A stretch of DNA of 38,789 bases, taken from IMG/VR virus record IMGVR_UViG_3300025687_000014, positions 1-38,789 of that record, one strand, 5' to 3'. A program made the position numbers and the translations under genes. Shown in pieces: positions 20,736 through 38,789 of the stretch. Numbering within the stretch: position 1 is the stretch's first letter; each line of letters begins with the position of its first letter. The notes under the pieces were generated by a model that saw only the letters and a program-made list of their open reading frames with translations, was not told the DNA's origin and ran no database searches. This DNA comes from a virus.

Positions 20736-21599
20736 ATGTCAGCCTCGTGGTACGACCGAGGTTATAGTGTTGGACAAAGATGGCGGTGGACGCTTTTACT
20801 AGCGACTGCCGCTTTCTTTATTGGCGCACTTTCAACCTTCTACTGGCACAACGAAGTCTTCGGGTTTCTTCTCGCCCCCGCTGACAACAAGTTGTCTCCG
20901 TTCGATGGCAAGCCGATTGTCACTGCTCCGACTACTATGTTCGGGGCTACTCTTAGCCTTGCTGTACTTGGCGGGAAACTACTTGCGTTTCCGTTTATCT
21001 TCGTTGGTGCGCTCAGTCTTCTGAAACCGCTTGCCCCTCGTGACTGGTGGCGCAGGTTCGTGGCAATCAACGCTGTGGTAGCACTGTTCCTGTTCATCTT
21101 GGGTGACGTGTTCGTGTACTACGTGATGATGCCAGTCAGCATGAGGTTCTTACTGTCGTTCGGCACAGACATCGTTGAACCAGTCATTACCCTCAACGCC
21201 TACATGGAGTTGCTGTTCGCTCTGTTCAAGTGGATTGGAATTGTGTTTATGATTCCGCTGTTTATGAACGTGTTAGCAAGAATGGGGTGGCTGTCTTACG
21301 AGCGAGCCAGGGGGTTCTACAGGGTTGGGTTCTTGTTGACAGCGTTCTTCTCTGCATTGATCTCTCCAGGGTTAGACCCAACGCTGACCGTTATGGTTGC
21401 CGTGCCAATGTATGCACTGTACCTAGTAGGACTGGGTTCTGTGTGGGCGATAGACCCATCAGCAGGGAACTATCTGTGGGTAAAGACCTTTGACGGTTGG
21501 AGAGAGGCTGTCTGGAGCAAGTGGCTACGTTTCTGGAGACTGCCCGAACGCCTTGGCTACTGGTTGGCAGACAAGATTGCCAATGTATTCTCACGATGA
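20736..21599 (+). CDS. tatC: TatC-like twin-arginine translocase subunit
   Basis: 287 residues with about six membrane spans. TatC landmarks in order: IVTAPTTMFG (61-70), a hydrophobic helix with Pro86, the loop at 98-107, GDVFVYYVMMP (123-133), Tyr156, FMIPL (171-175), RARGFYRVG (190-198), ISPGLDPT (209-216, with the conserved Asp214) and VAVPMYALYL (221-230). Cellular TatC passes folded proteins carrying twin-arginine signals. Here residues needed for signal-peptide binding appear lost: Glu of the Phe-Glu-x-Pro motif is Met172, and the N-terminal His-Leu-x-Glu-Leu-Arg is missing. The C-terminus is about 40 residues longer than usual, with a Trp/Arg-rich tail. It may modify host export, anchor an envelope complex or serve lysis. 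Fold assignment is strong, activity open. Confidence 0.85.
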   Translation: MSASWYDRGYSVGQRWRWTLLLATAAFFIGALSTFYWHNEVFGFLLAPADNKLSPFDGKPIVTAPTTMFGATLSLAVLGGKLLAFPFIFVGALSLLKPLAPRDWWRRFVAINAVVALFLFILGDVFVYYVMMPVSMRFLLSFGTDIVEPVITLNAYMELLFALFKWIGIVFMIPLFMNVLARMGWLSYERARGFYRVGFLLTAFFSALISPGLDPTLTVMVAVPMYALYLVGLGSVWAIDPSAGNYLWVKTFDGWREAVWSKWLRFWRLPERLGYWLADKIANVFSR

Positions 21600-22008: not shown

Positions 22009-22428
22009 CTACCAACTGATTGACACTTCGACCCTTTCAGAACCACGAGGGCATCGCCACTTTTGCATCGTTATCGTGTCCACCTGGTTGTCGTCAGTCC
22101 ACAAGCCAGCCTCAGAGAGAGCGTCCTCGGTGTGCGACAGTAGGTTCTTCAGGTCAGGCTTCTCCGTGTGGTCTCCGACGCTGCCAGCCTTGTATTTCGG
22201 GGTGTTCTTCTGCCACGGCAAGTAGAAGTTGTAGTCCGCCCGTACTGGTTTGCCAGCAGGAATCGGAAACTGGTCGTTGCCTGCTTCCAACATTGCAAAG
22301 AACGCAGCGTCTACGACCTTCTTCTTCCATTGCTTCACCGCTGGCACATTGAACATGCCTCGGCGGTTAGCCCGTATGCGTGGTCGCTGAGTTGCTGGCA
22401 CGCCCTCTATGGTGAACTCCAGTTTCAT
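22009..22428 (-). CDS. rusA: RusA-like Holliday junction resolvase
   Basis: 139 residues. The family pattern is clear: KPDLKNLLSHTEDALSEAGL (90-109) followed by WTDDNQV (110-116) near the C-terminus, and an N-terminal EGVPATQRPRIRA. RusA enzymes cleave four-way DNA junctions during recombination or before packaging. The usual KPDxDN motif here has Lys (94) at the second Asp position; Asp92, Asp102 and Asp112/113 are kept, so the metal site may differ. ATG overlaps the previous stop (ATGA). It is the last gene before the operon terminator. Confidence 0.9.
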   Translation of the reverse strand: MKLEFTIEGVPATQRPRIRANRRGMFNVPAVKQWKKKVVDAAFFAMLEAGNDQFPIPAGKPVRADYNFYLPWQKNTPKYKAGSVGDHTEKPDLKNLLSHTEDALSEAGLWTDDNQVDTITMQKWRCPRGSERVEVSISW

Positions 22429-22607
22429 CTAGTACCAATCTTTTTATTCGGTACACCCTTCCGTGTACGTTGCCGCACTCCCAAAGGGTAATGCCTCTTC
22501 GTATCCCCGTACTGGTTTACTGGGACTGCTACGTGGCACACAGGGCAGAAGCCACGCTCGATGAACGCTGGTGCTGCTGCCTCATGTGAGCCTTGGCACA
22601 GTCTCAT
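22425..22607 (-). CDS. Small zinc-binding basic protein
   Basis: 60 residues from ATG 22607, which overlaps the previous stop (TAATG). It has FCPVCHVAVPV (one CxxCH knuckle) and an Arg/Lys-rich C-terminus (GVRQRTRKGVPNKK). An upstream-extended frame exists but has poor composition; the coupled ATG is preferred. Possibly nucleic-acid binding. Confidence 0.65.
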   Translation of the reverse strand: MRLCQGSHEAAAPAFIERGFCPVCHVAVPVNQYGDTKRHYPLGVRQRTRKGVPNKKIGTR

Positions 22608-22981
22608 TACGCCTTCATCCTTTGCAGTAATCTGTACTCTTGCGAGTTCGGGTCTTGCCGCCGCTCTTCTACTTCTGCGAAGTGGCGTTCCAGCATGCTT
22701 TCTGAAATCTCGCCCTGTCGCTTGGCGTTCTGCGGTCGCTGCCCGACTCGTATCTCCTGGGCTGCTGAAGCGTGCAGGTATCTCATGGCTGTGTCGAACC
22801 TGTTGATACCTTGTTCCTTCACAGTATCCTCGAAGTCTTCCAGCCACTCGACCGGATACTCTGGAAACTTGTCTACCCACGTTTTCAGTTTCTCGAAGTC
22901 GTGGTTCACCAGCGAACCTTCAGCGTTCAGCTGTATGCCGACATTCTGGAAGCTGGCTAGGGTTGCTTGTGTGAGGTTCAT
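22607..22981 (-). CDS. Hypothetical protein coupled to the base-exchange enzyme
   Basis: 124 residues from ATG 22981, overlapping the stop of the TGT/DpdA-like gene (ATGA). Helical and charged (FEKLKTWVDKFPEYPVEWLEDF, ISESMLERHFAEVEERRQ). No family recognised. The translational coupling to the modification gene makes a related role possible. Confidence 0.6.
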   Translation of the reverse strand: MNLTQATLASFQNVGIQLNAEGSLVNHDFEKLKTWVDKFPEYPVEWLEDFEDTVKEQGINRFDTAMRYLHASAAQEIRVGQRPQNAKRQGEISESMLERHFAEVEERRQDPNSQEYRLLQRMKA

Positions 22982-23592
22982 AGTGCCAACCTTTCTTGCT
23001 GGCTCAATGTTTTCAACCATCCTTCTAGTTTTGGTAAAAGAATGTCAGGAGCGAACACCAAGTAAGTACCATCGGCTGAGTCGTACCCTGACACCGCAGC
23101 AGCTTTAAGTCTGCGCCAACTGTTTACTCGTCCCATGTGCGTCCACTTTCCTTTGTTCTCTGCCTCTACTGCTAACTCGTAGGCTGCTTCGCTGAGTTTC
23201 CATTCAGTCGTTCCACCAATGAACAAGCAATCGAACTCGTCCCACGGAATATCCATGTTCTCTAGTCCGTTCTGTGCAACCAGCGCAGCCCTGTAGCCCT
23301 CTGCACGCAATAGCGGAAACATCGGAAGAGACTTGTCCATTGTTGCTTCTGCATTGCCTACAACGTCTGGGGCTGTGGCAAACAGGCATCGCTTGGAATA
23401 ATCTGCTCGCTCACGCAACCACGCCAGGTATTCTTCTTGGTCGTACTTCTCAGGTTGATTGAAGCAACCCGTATCAGCAGCCCACAGCGTACCGTTGAAG
23501 TCCACCTTGTTACCGATCATAGGTGTAAGCATGTAACCCGTATTCGGGCGACACACCAACGCCTTATTGATTGCGCCAGATAGGTAAATCAT
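22978..23592 (-). CDS. dpdA: TGT/DpdA-like 7-deazaguanine insertase
   Basis: 204 residues. Motifs in order: ADTGCF (39-44, the Asp-Ser/Thr-Gly site), FATAPDVVGN (71-80), VAQNG (105-109), FIGGTTEWK (124-132), HMGRVNS (152-158) and DSADG (171-175). These match the short phage proteins annotated as queuine tRNA-ribosyltransferase and related to DpdA, which exchange guanine in DNA for a 7-deazaguanine. It is much shorter than bacterial Tgt (about 370) and lacks its C-terminal zinc site. It starts inside the transporter gene, with AGGA six bases before ATG 23592. The neighbouring transporter supports a base-salvage role. Confidence 0.85.
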   Translation of the reverse strand: MIYLSGAINKALVCRPNTGYMLTPMIGNKVDFNGTLWAADTGCFNQPEKYDQEEYLAWLRERADYSKRCLFATAPDVVGNAEATMDKSLPMFPLLRAEGYRAALVAQNGLENMDIPWDEFDCLFIGGTTEWKLSEAAYELAVEAENKGKWTHMGRVNSWRRLKAAAVSGYDSADGTYLVFAPDILLPKLEGWLKTLSQQERLAL

Positions 23593-24073
23593 TGCGGTTC
23601 CTGTAAATGTAGAGCGGGATAACGAACGTTAGCGTCATGTATGCCTTACCGACCAATTGACCTTCGATGAACGCAAGGCTACCGAACGCCATCCATAGGA
23701 AGATCACTGAGTCAACGGTCAACCCGCCGATATTGCTGACGGTGATTGCACCCAACCAGTTCCGTTTACGCAGTGGTGAGTAAATAGAGAAATCAACCAA
23801 CTCAGACACGGTAAATGCTGTTGCTGATGCGATTGCAAAAGTTGGCTCAATCCACCAACTCAGGAATCCACCGATAGCAATAGCGACAAGCACCCAATAA
23901 CGACCACCTGATTCATGCAGTAAGTCTCGTAACGTGAATCCTATTCCAGCAAAAAAAACACCAGCTGGTGCTGATAGTCCGAAACCCACCGACACAAACC
24001 CAAACTCTTTTAGTGCTGCGTTTGCCGCAAGAACTGTGCTTGCGAACGCTGCTGCTAGTAATACTCTTACCAC
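23564..24073 (-). CDS. yhhQ: Queuosine-precursor transporter, VUT/YhhQ family
   Basis: 169 residues, about five or six membrane spans. Family motifs: FTLRDLLHE (46-54), ATAFTVSELVDFSIYSPLRKRN (84-105) and SNIGGLTVDSVIF (113-125). YhhQ-type proteins import 7-deazaguanine precursors such as preQ0 and preQ1. GTG start at 24073 with GGAGG seven bases upstream, overlapping the end of the SSB-like gene. It is followed by the DpdA-like gene, so import and insertion are co-expressed. It is shorter than bacterial YhhQ (about 220), as usual in phages. Confidence 0.9.
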   Translation of the reverse strand: MVRVLLAAAFASTVLAANAALKEFGFVSVGFGLSAPAGVFFAGIGFTLRDLLHESGGRYWVLVAIAIGGFLSWWIEPTFAIASATAFTVSELVDFSIYSPLRKRNWLGAITVSNIGGLTVDSVIFLWMAFGSLAFIEGQLVGKAYMTLTFVIPLYIYRNRNDLPIWRNQ

Positions 24074-24789
24074 GGCACGTCCTCCGGTTCACCGTAACCA
24101 TCGTCACCAGATGGCTGCTGCCCACCAGCACCCTGCGCTTCCCATGTGGGCTGCTGTGCTGCGTTGTGTTCTGGTGTTGACTGGAACTCTGGCTGCTGTT
24201 CACTGAGATGCTGTGCGGCTTGCTGGTCGAGTTCCTCGGCAGGGTTGTCCCACTCGGTTTCCTCGACAGTAAACGGTGTCTTGCCAGCCTTCAGCAGAGC
24301 GTAGCCCTCGTGCCATTCAGTCCACATCTCGTCTAGTTGCTCGTCTGCCAGTGTGCCGCCTCGTGCGCCGTGTGCAGCCAGCATCGCAGTCAGCCCGTTC
24401 CATGCTTGCGCTTTGGCTATCCGCTGGTCAACAGAGAGCGTCGGCTGCTGCGGAGCAACGTACTCGTCACGAGGGTCGCCTTGTGGCTGCTCGTAACTGG
24501 GCTGCTGTGCAATCGGTTCGCCGTCAGCCTTCTCGATGCCTTCGATGTCCATGTAGAACTTCGACGGGTCGTTGACCTTGGGCTTCGTCTTCAAGAAGAA
24601 CTTTGCAACCGTGCCGATAGGCGGCTTGCGGTTGTGGTACGACTCAGGTAACTGCCAGAAGCCGTCAATTTCCGTGAACGCTATCTGGGTGTCGTTGTAC
24701 TTGCTGACTGCGGATACGGTCAGCACAGCACCCTCGTAACGGGTCTGCCCTTTGTACTGGCTCTTGATGTCCAAACCTGGGATATTCAT
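24067..24789 (-). CDS. SSB-like single-stranded DNA-binding protein
   Basis: 240 residues from ATG 24789, overlapping the previous stop (ATGA). Residues 1-100 look like an OB fold (YEGAVLTVSAVSKYNDTQIAF, PPIGTVAKFFLKTKPK, FYMDIEGIEKADG). A helical part with Trp residues follows (WNGLTAMLAAHGARG). The tail is long, Gln/Pro/Gly-rich and disordered, ending EPEDVPW. Acidic tips ending in a hydrophobic residue (usually DDDIPF) are the partner-binding signature of SSB. Phage single-strand binding protein is the best reading. Confidence 0.7.
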   Translation of the reverse strand: MNIPGLDIKSQYKGQTRYEGAVLTVSAVSKYNDTQIAFTEIDGFWQLPESYHNRKPPIGTVAKFFLKTKPKVNDPSKFYMDIEGIEKADGEPIAQQPSYEQPQGDPRDEYVAPQQPTLSVDQRIAKAQAWNGLTAMLAAHGARGGTLADEQLDEMWTEWHEGYALLKAGKTPFTVEETEWDNPAEELDQQAAQHLSEQQPEFQSTPEHNAAQQPTWEAQGAGGQQPSGDDGYGEPEDVPW

Positions 24790-24983
24790 TCTGTTTCCTC
24801 TGTCTTGCTGTCCAGTGACCGCAGCCACTCGCGTACTAACTGTTCGCCGTGACCGAATACGGTGATGTCTTTGGGGTTCAATGGGTCTGTAAGAGTGCCG
24901 TCACTAAACGTAATCACTACACCGTGTTCGTTTGCTATAAACCCTCGCAAATCTGCAACGTTCACCAAATATTTATCGTTCAT
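24786..24983 (-). CDS. Small hypothetical early protein
   Basis: 65 residues: an N-terminal beta part (YLVNVADLRGFIANEHGVVITF) followed by a helix and an acidic end. Its stop overlaps the SSB-like start (ATGA), so it is translated with it. No family recognised. Confidence 0.65.
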   Translation of the reverse strand: MNDKYLVNVADLRGFIANEHGVVITFSDGTLTDPLNPKDITVFGHGEQLVREWLRSLDSKTEETE

Positions 24984-27936: not shown

Positions 27937-28473
27937 TTACGTGAGGCTCATAGTTTGCTGGAGTTTGCGCTCGACGGTAACGATGGTGTCGTTGTGTCCA
28001 CCACCATGAAATACCAGTAACACTTCGATCATTTCAAAGCCTCGCTCTTTACCGAACCCTGCGCTGTTCCACCCACAACAGATCACAATTCCATTCGGCT
28101 TGATCTTCGGATGTGCCAACGTCTTGACCCTTCGATACAGTCTCCCACTCTGGGTTTCTTCCATACCGACCTTGCGACCGACATTGCTATAGACCTCTGA
28201 GATTTGGCGTGGTGAATACGGCGGGTCGAATATGAACCCGTCCAGTTCACCGTCTACTAGCGACGCTGTAAAGTCCTCTGCGTCTATGTGTGAAGTAGTC
28301 GGGGCTTCTGGGTTTAGATCGTTTGTATACGTCGCTGGACTGTTCCAGCCAGAAAACGGGTCTGCCCATATTTCACCTTTTTTCACGTACCGATTCACCA
28401 GTTCTTCAATTGGCTTTATCGTAAACGTGTGCTTACTGGGCATTGCAAACACTCTGGAAAATTGGATGCTCAC
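27937..28473 (-). CDS. DPPY-type DNA adenine methyltransferase-like protein
   Basis: 178 residues. It carries IWADPFSGWNSP (35-46, a motif I-like S-adenosylmethionine site), DPPYSP (83-88, the catalytic motif IV of N6-adenine and related amino-methyltransferases) and a C-terminal beta part (GIVICCGWNS, EVLLVFHGGGHNDTIVTVERK). It has no separate target-recognition domain, as in many small phage enzymes. Start is GTG 28473, overlapping the previous stop (TAGTG). It may protect DNA together with the 7-deazaguanine route. Confidence 0.75.
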   Translation of the reverse strand: MSIQFSRVFAMPSKHTFTIKPIEELVNRYVKKGEIWADPFSGWNSPATYTNDLNPEAPTTSHIDAEDFTASLVDGELDGFIFDPPYSPRQISEVYSNVGRKVGMEETQSGRLYRRVKTLAHPKIKPNGIVICCGWNSAGFGKERGFEMIEVLLVFHGGGHNDTIVTVERKLQQTMSLT

Positions 28474-38410: not shown

Positions 38411-38789
38411 TTGGTCTTCCCTTTTGGTGTTGGCGACCCCAGAGATGACATTGACCGAGTTGCCCGTGAACTAACCGGCAACCAGTTTCGCCTGAAACGT
38501 GACGACCCAGACGCAGGGCAGAAGTTCCTCGATTTCGTGGCGCAGTCTGAGCAGGACTTTGCACAGATTCAGCAGTCACCTGTTCCAACTGGTGTTCAGG
38601 CGACACCCGCTGCTGCACAGCCAACGGCATCCCCTGTCGATCTTCAACCGCCTCGTGATAAAGGCGCAATGCAGCGTGCTGAGACATTCTTCAATGAAAC
38701 TCCACTAGGACAAGGGCTTCTTGGTGCTGGTCGATTCGGTCAGGAATTTACAGAGTCAGGAATGTTTGGTGCTGGCGGTATTGCAAGAC
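38411..38789 (+). CDS. Giant putative DNA-ejection protein, 5' part (continues at base 1)
   Basis: This is the true start of the 1552-residue protein that continues at base 1. Translation begins at TTG 38411, preceded by a strong Shine-Dalgarno (AGGGAGG, about six bases upstream). The first ATG seen at base 7 of the window is internal: the 86 codons before it are open and read MVFPFGVGDPRDD and onward. The N-terminal region is rich in Gln, Pro and Ala and looks flexible. The gene follows the 112-residue gene by 15 bases, in the same operon as terL and portal. Confidence 0.85.
   Translation, partial: MVFPFGVGDPRDDIDRVARELTGNQFRLKRDDPDAGQKFLDFVAQSEQDFAQIQQSPVPTGVQATPAAAQPTASPVDLQPPRDKGAMQRAETFFNETPLGQGLLGAGRFGQEFTESGMFGAGGIAR
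38663..38789. repeat. 127-bp terminal overlap, copy 2 (circular closure)
   Basis: Exact copy of bases 1-127; it lies inside the 5' part of the giant protein gene. See copy 1 for interpretation. Confidence 0.95.

Follow-up and report, generated by a model that had tools for sequence, protein, structure and literature searches.

The canonical DpdA enzymes of phages such as 9g, CAjan, and Rosebush belong to the TGT superfamily, and their genes adjoin genes for 7-deazaguanine supply, namely those coding for FolE, QueD, QueE, and QueC (PMC6884629). Evasion of restriction has been tested in phages CAjan, Rosebush, 9g, and HVTV-1 (PMC6884629). For Streptococcus phage Dp-1, it was confirmed by LC-MS/MS that the DNA carries dPreQ1 (PMC6884629). 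For phages which have DpdA only, a precursor of host or exogenous origin was suggested (Hutinet et al. 2019, PMC6884629), and phage MED16 illustrates that a lone DpdA can accompany modified DNA (PMC8306585). The transporter YhhQ is encoded by some phages but is not correlated with any phage group (Hutinet et al. 2019, PMC6884629).

In the phage genome described here, the gene for a TGT superfamily enzyme likewise adjoins a gene for putative 7-deazaguanine supply, but an importer takes the place of synthesis, and the enzyme, with a family size of about 200 aa compared to about 300 aa for canonical DpdA, is set apart from the latter by its HMM score.

The phage genome and its yhhQ operon

The window, i.e., the whole stretch of DNA that was analyzed, is a virus record of 38,789 bases and corresponds to a closed phage genome, about 38.7 kb in size. 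Closure is indicated by an exact direct terminal repeat of 127 bp (positions 1-127 and 38663-38789). A repeat of this length is also compatible with a k-mer overlap left by the assembler.

A compact operon on the minus strand comprises, in order of transcription, genes coding for proteins of 253 aa (24067-24828), 169 aa (yhhQ-like; 23564-24073), 204 aa (22978-23592), and 137 aa (22607-23020). Farther on, also on the minus strand, is the gene for a RusA-like Holliday-junction resolvase (22009-22428; Pfam RusA, E = 2.7e-17). The first two genes overlap by 7 nt, the second and third by 29 nt, and the third and fourth by 43 nt. The yhhQ-like gene starts with GTG, preceded by GGAGGA, and the gene for the 204-aa protein starts with ATG; both ORFs are intact. 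No match in Pfam or PHROG was obtained for the 253-aa protein, and the Pfam match of the 137-aa protein is weak and sub-threshold. The first-pass annotation had placed a YhhQ-type transporter gene at this site, overlapping a gene for a TGT/DpdA-like base-exchange enzyme, and both its coordinates and its gene readings proved correct. Its statement that preQ0 biosynthesis genes are missing holds for the entire genome: neither QueC (TIGR00364) nor canonical DpdA was found in the closed window, and FolE, QueD, QueE, and QueC are not among the 25 Pfam families listed for its 65 ORFs.

The 169-aa protein matches the Pfam family Vut_1 (PF02592) with 34.7 bits, which is above the gathering score of 27.2. 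In NCBIfam, the top-scoring model is TIGR00697 ("queuosine precursor transporter"), with a match that is partial and below the cut-off (28.8 bits vs. 50.95). All 36 aligned relatives of the transporter match Vut_1, while TIGR00697 is matched by 34 and the preQ0/preQ1 transporter model by 19 of them. Family membership suggests that the YhhQ-type protein carries a 7-deazaguanine precursor, with preQ0, preQ1, and queuine not separable at the sequence level.

Elsewhere in the genome, a gene on the plus strand (20736-21599) codes for TatC (Sec-independent translocase, 287 aa, E = 3e-33); similar genes occur in very few phage records. Searches for the host of the phage via its terminase and TatC yielded distant matches only. 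A 178-aa protein (27937-28473, minus strand) matches phrog_11619, which is annotated as DNA methyltransferase, and is possibly encoded by a further gene for DNA protection in this early region.

A compact relative of phage DpdA

The 204-aa protein has no match in Pfam or NCBIfam; its only match is to phrog_15826, a family of unknown function (E = 1.5e-62). Relatives identified by tblastn in phages of Arthrobacter and Mycobacterium are annotated as "DpdA-like tRNA-guanine transglycosylase". We refer to this family as cDpdA, a name coined here with "c" for compact. When a 62-member cDpdA profile was compared by hhalign with 14 canonical phage DpdAs, a probability of 96.7% was obtained (E = 3.5e-10, 157 columns), compared to 12% (E = 2.3e-3) for bacterial Tgt and to at most 0.8% for each of nt-1 DpdA2, YhhQ, FolE, QueE, and QueC. 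Five column-shuffled versions of the profile, used as a control, reached at most 0.5%. The similarity to four short DpdAs, including that of Cellulophaga phage phiSM, is weaker than that to canonical phage DpdA (82.6%, E = 1e-5). Single-sequence and profile searches of cDpdA against solved structures returned chance-level matches only.

Several motifs are collinear with DpdA: D40 (DSG-type), P75-D76, Q107 together with G109, G126-G127, H152, G154-N157, and D174. Conserved within cDpdA are D40, D76, Q107, G126-G127, H152, and D174, the last of which is invariant. D174 aligns with the FDC region of Tgt, the Asp of which is the Tgt nucleophile.

We rejected an identity as tRNA-specific Tgt, the grouping that the first-pass annotation had held to speak against its own proposal, because the protein does not match the Pfam family TGT (PF01702) and its profile sides with DpdA rather than with Tgt. 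Membership in canonical DpdA (DpdA1) was rejected as well, since the window protein scores 10 bits with the canonical DpdA HMM, compared to 106-354 bits for family members, and so was membership in DpdA2 (nt-1; profile similarity 0.3%, with DpdA2 represented by one sequence). Judged by profiles and motifs, cDpdA is a separate compact family and a distant but clear relative of phage DpdA. The earlier label "DpdA-like" is thus appropriate at the superfamily level but not in the sense of DpdA proper.

A tRNA substrate has to be weighed at this point: the pair might import a queuosine precursor and insert it, by means of a minimal transglycosylase, into the tRNA of a host devoid of Tgt, thereby aiding phage translation. 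The enzyme does belong to the TGT superfamily, a phage-borne copy could matter in the several hosts that lack Tgt, and the same role has been proposed for phages with preQ0 genes but without DpdA (PMC6884629). However, the profile relatives are the DNA-acting phage DpdAs and not Tgt, the short (204 aa) protein is devoid of a Tgt-like CxCxxC zinc motif, and the operon is of a recombination/replication type near RusA, with DNA polymerase genes adjoining cDpdA in phages R29Z and phiG7. We consider an action on tRNA distinctly unlikely and infer from DpdA kinship, short length, the missing cysteine motif, and gene location that DNA is the favored substrate.

Import and synthesis beside cDpdA

A single-sequence search for cDpdA in viral contigs returned no matches. 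A search with an eight-row alignment identified 474 viral stretches with cDpdA, and 78 loci were found in bacterial and archaeal genomes; two further scans enlarged the sample. A non-redundant set of 112 clusters was obtained by clustering cDpdA at 90% identity and by requiring a flank of at least 1.5 kb on each side. YhhQ was scored as a neighbor when located within 4 kb, and Que genes when two or more of QueC/QueD/QueE/FolE were present. Under these definitions, YhhQ is present in 53 clusters, Que genes in 13, both in one, and neither in 45 (Fisher test against joint occurrence of YhhQ and Que, p = 0.001).

In every viral locus with YhhQ, the gene is on the same strand as cDpdA, mostly overlapping it. 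It is found upstream of cDpdA in 77 and downstream in 25 viral loci (near-copies included), and the occurrence of both gene orders indicates that the linkage arose more than once. The pairing is not due to chance, given that YhhQ accompanies cDpdA in 53 of 112 loci while a transporter query matched just 52 of 50,697 phage records, several of which also carry canonical DpdA. In a clustering of neighbors, which is dominated by near-identical Burkholderiaceae genomes, no other family among the matches listed recurs across viral loci to the extent that YhhQ does.

Whole records were then compared for 25 loci of the YhhQ type (window included) and 11 of the Que type; because these were chosen by their local neighbors, the informative part is what is absent elsewhere in the record. 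None of the 25 YhhQ-type records contains QueC, whereas each of the 11 Que-type records does, ten with a score that exceeds the curated cut-off; a whole-record search for Vut_1 in the 11 Que-type records found none. The import-or-make rule thus holds for cDpdA loci. A universal rule by which YhhQ occurs only where synthesis is absent was rejected, since 033B and Seuratvirus have both, together with canonical DpdA. Neither the 25 YhhQ-type records nor nine of the 11 Que-type records (contigs of 118, 65, 57, 42, and 40 kb among the nine) contain canonical DpdA, which leaves cDpdA as the sole known candidate inserter in these nine. In a tree of 143 cDpdAs, built by a quick method and with many weak branches, the Que label undergoes 10 changes for 11 rows, at least six of which are forced by well-supported branches. 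This indicates that importer and biosynthesis genes were repeatedly exchanged beside the same enzyme.

In the simplest interpretation, the neighboring gene supplies a 7-deazaguanine base, which cDpdA would use, most likely by inserting it. The base would most likely be preQ0, because Que-type records have QueC, usually without canonical DpdA. The import-and-insert route proposed in the first-pass annotation is thus well supported by comparison: YhhQ adjoins the enzyme in many lineages and was repeatedly swapped with QueC/D/E, most of the swapped genomes are devoid of canonical DpdA, and several hosts lack both preQ0 synthesis and Tgt.

Six genomes (Sonali, R29Z, phiG7, and loci L022, L230, and L265) carry cDpdA together with canonical DpdA, which would fit a role of cDpdA as an accessory of 7-deazaguanine metabolism (base removal or exchange at other sites, or action on free nucleosides), with YhhQ topping up the precursor. 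Also in line with such a role, deletion of dpdA abolished modification in CAjan, which is a Seuratvirus like phiG7 (PMC6884629), and the compact gene of phiG7 is broken into two frames. Yet all 25 YhhQ-type and nine of the 11 Que-type records are devoid of another DpdA, so that there would be nothing to assist unless the host provided a DpdA, and we regard this role as improbable. The split gene of Escherichia phage phiG7 (L009:7932-8524) consists of two overlapping frames between the genes for a polymerase beta-subunit and DNA polymerase, with an intact canonical DpdA beside it; SHIN8 likewise matches in two pieces.

Vut_1 was not found elsewhere in the 14 partnerless cDpdA records that were searched, and a search of partnerless loci for another importer, QueT, gave no matches. 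At such loci, cDpdA either uses a host precursor or has another activity. Several groups of loci stand out by their neighborhoods. In one viral cDpdA clade (L281-L326), a QueC-like gene is found nearby without QueD or QueE and perhaps codes for a repurposed QueC-fold protein. A PAPS-reductase-like gene is located near cDpdA in several unrelated phages (L004:4649-5566, L008:9427-10470, L027, and L084). A well-supported actinobacterial clade (L102-L119; Nocardia, Nonomuraea, Sphaerisporangium, and Actinomadura) has neither YhhQ nor Que neighbors; Tgt and QueC are both absent from the two Nonomuraea genomes searched. A distant clade that is common in Burkholderiaceae (L129-L161; Caballeronia, Paraburkholderia, and Burkholderia) has a conserved neighborhood without YhhQ.

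Eight bacterial genomes with the YhhQ-cDpdA pair were analyzed, of which seven lack Tgt and five lack a QueC above the cut-off. In host genomes devoid of Tgt and QueC, the phage would have to import the base. In the genome of a Cellulomonas sp. (L095), a weak TGT-family match was found on contig 2 (near 306-310 kb), with a QueC gene about 2.5 kb away; the two possibly represent a second 7-deazaguanine DNA cluster in this genome.

In Fishburnevirus mycobacteriophages, e.g., GreaseLightnin and Ksquared, yhhQ is located immediately ahead of cDpdA, and a RusA gene is near the pair, as in the window. At the same site, between the RusA and methylase genes, phages Arib1 and Techage have a yhhQ shortened to 110 aa and have lost cDpdA. 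The recorded host of all four phages is M. smegmatis, and Q-pathway genes were reported to be absent from the genus of this host (PMC6884629). As phages with and without the pair share a host, the hypothesis is directly testable.

The loss of the pair in Arib1 and Techage could be taken to mean that the window genome carries it as a neutral or non-functional passenger, with host surroundings that offer no precursor. Several hosts do have no known source of preQ0, and phage Orion has a DpdA yet no modification (PMC6884629). On the other hand, the motifs are conserved over divergent lineages, both gene orders recur, and the neighbor was swapped at least six times for functionally equivalent genes, all of which points to selection on function. 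We thus consider a passenger role very improbable.

Proposed route and comparison with known systems

We consider it likely that the yhhQ-cDpdA pair is a self-contained module by which an imported 7-deazaguanine is placed in phage DNA, conferring restriction resistance. The free base that the YhhQ-type protein would bring into infected cells is most likely preQ0, though it may be preQ1 or queuine. cDpdA would then use an Asp nucleophile to detach guanine from phage DNA at the glycosidic bond and rebuild this bond with the imported base, and the modified DNA would resist host restriction enzymes. Transport specificity, DNA as the substrate, base identity, and benefit are the inferred parts of this reading; restriction evasion, in particular, is carried over by analogy from the phages in which it was tested.

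If this is true, the importer form ties the DNA chemistry of a phage to a scavenged micronutrient, and the resistance of the phage to restriction would differ between environments. This suggests that modification of phage DNA can hinge on an environmental nutrient, and resistance to restriction with it. The results bear on the role of DpdA-like genes in phages without preQ0 genes, a point that the work of 2019 did not settle, and they predict a rule that can be tested: import or make, rarely both. With cDpdA, there is a small enzyme that may place 7-deazaguanines in DNA. We further propose, though giving it slightly less than an even chance, that cDpdA is an undescribed family of minimal DNA-guanine transglycosylases which is widespread among viruses infecting Actinomycetota and many uncultured hosts and which accepts any supplier, be it importer or biosynthesis. 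No description of the compact family or of the alternation between import and synthesis was found in the literature covered, which did not extend to Cui et al. 2023. That work is said to report more 7-deazaguanine derivatives and more DpdA subfamilies (DpdA3 and DpdA4).

The principle of import and insertion has precedents in phage Dp-1 and in the proposal of Hutinet et al. 2019 (PMC6884629). In Dp-1 (L191), as in the window, an importer gene directly precedes the transglycosylase gene, but the importer is QueT instead of YhhQ, the enzyme is a canonical DpdA, and the phage has its own preQ0 synthesis. In Fusobacterium phage phiFN37, the transglycosylase gene is also close to that of a queuosine precursor transporter; here, too, the enzyme is a canonical DpdA, in this case with a ParB-like neighbor, and no report of a modification was found for phiFN37. 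A ParB-like gene repeatedly adjoins canonical DpdA (L003, L192, L193, L196, L197, and L199) and perhaps codes for a partner in DNA targeting or nicking.

Seuratvirus and EC151 (PMC8310023) resemble the window in having a phage-borne preQ0 transporter inside a 7-deazaguanine cluster; however, their transporter supplements full synthesis and a canonical DpdA and does not replace these. The DpdA-only phages Orion and 7-11 (PMC6884629) and MED16 (PMC8306585) share with the window a transglycosylase without preQ0 genes but, unlike the window, have no linked transporter described, and the DpdA of 7-11 scores as canonical DpdA. DpdA2 of Vibrio phage nt-1 is, like cDpdA, a member of the TGT superfamily that is overlooked by a canonical DpdA query, but it has 464 aa and is not similar to cDpdA at the profile level. 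With canonical phage DpdA, by contrast, cDpdA is kin at the profile level, the alignment showing the DSG-type, D-(V/I)-(V/I)-G, GG, His, and Asp motifs to be common to both.
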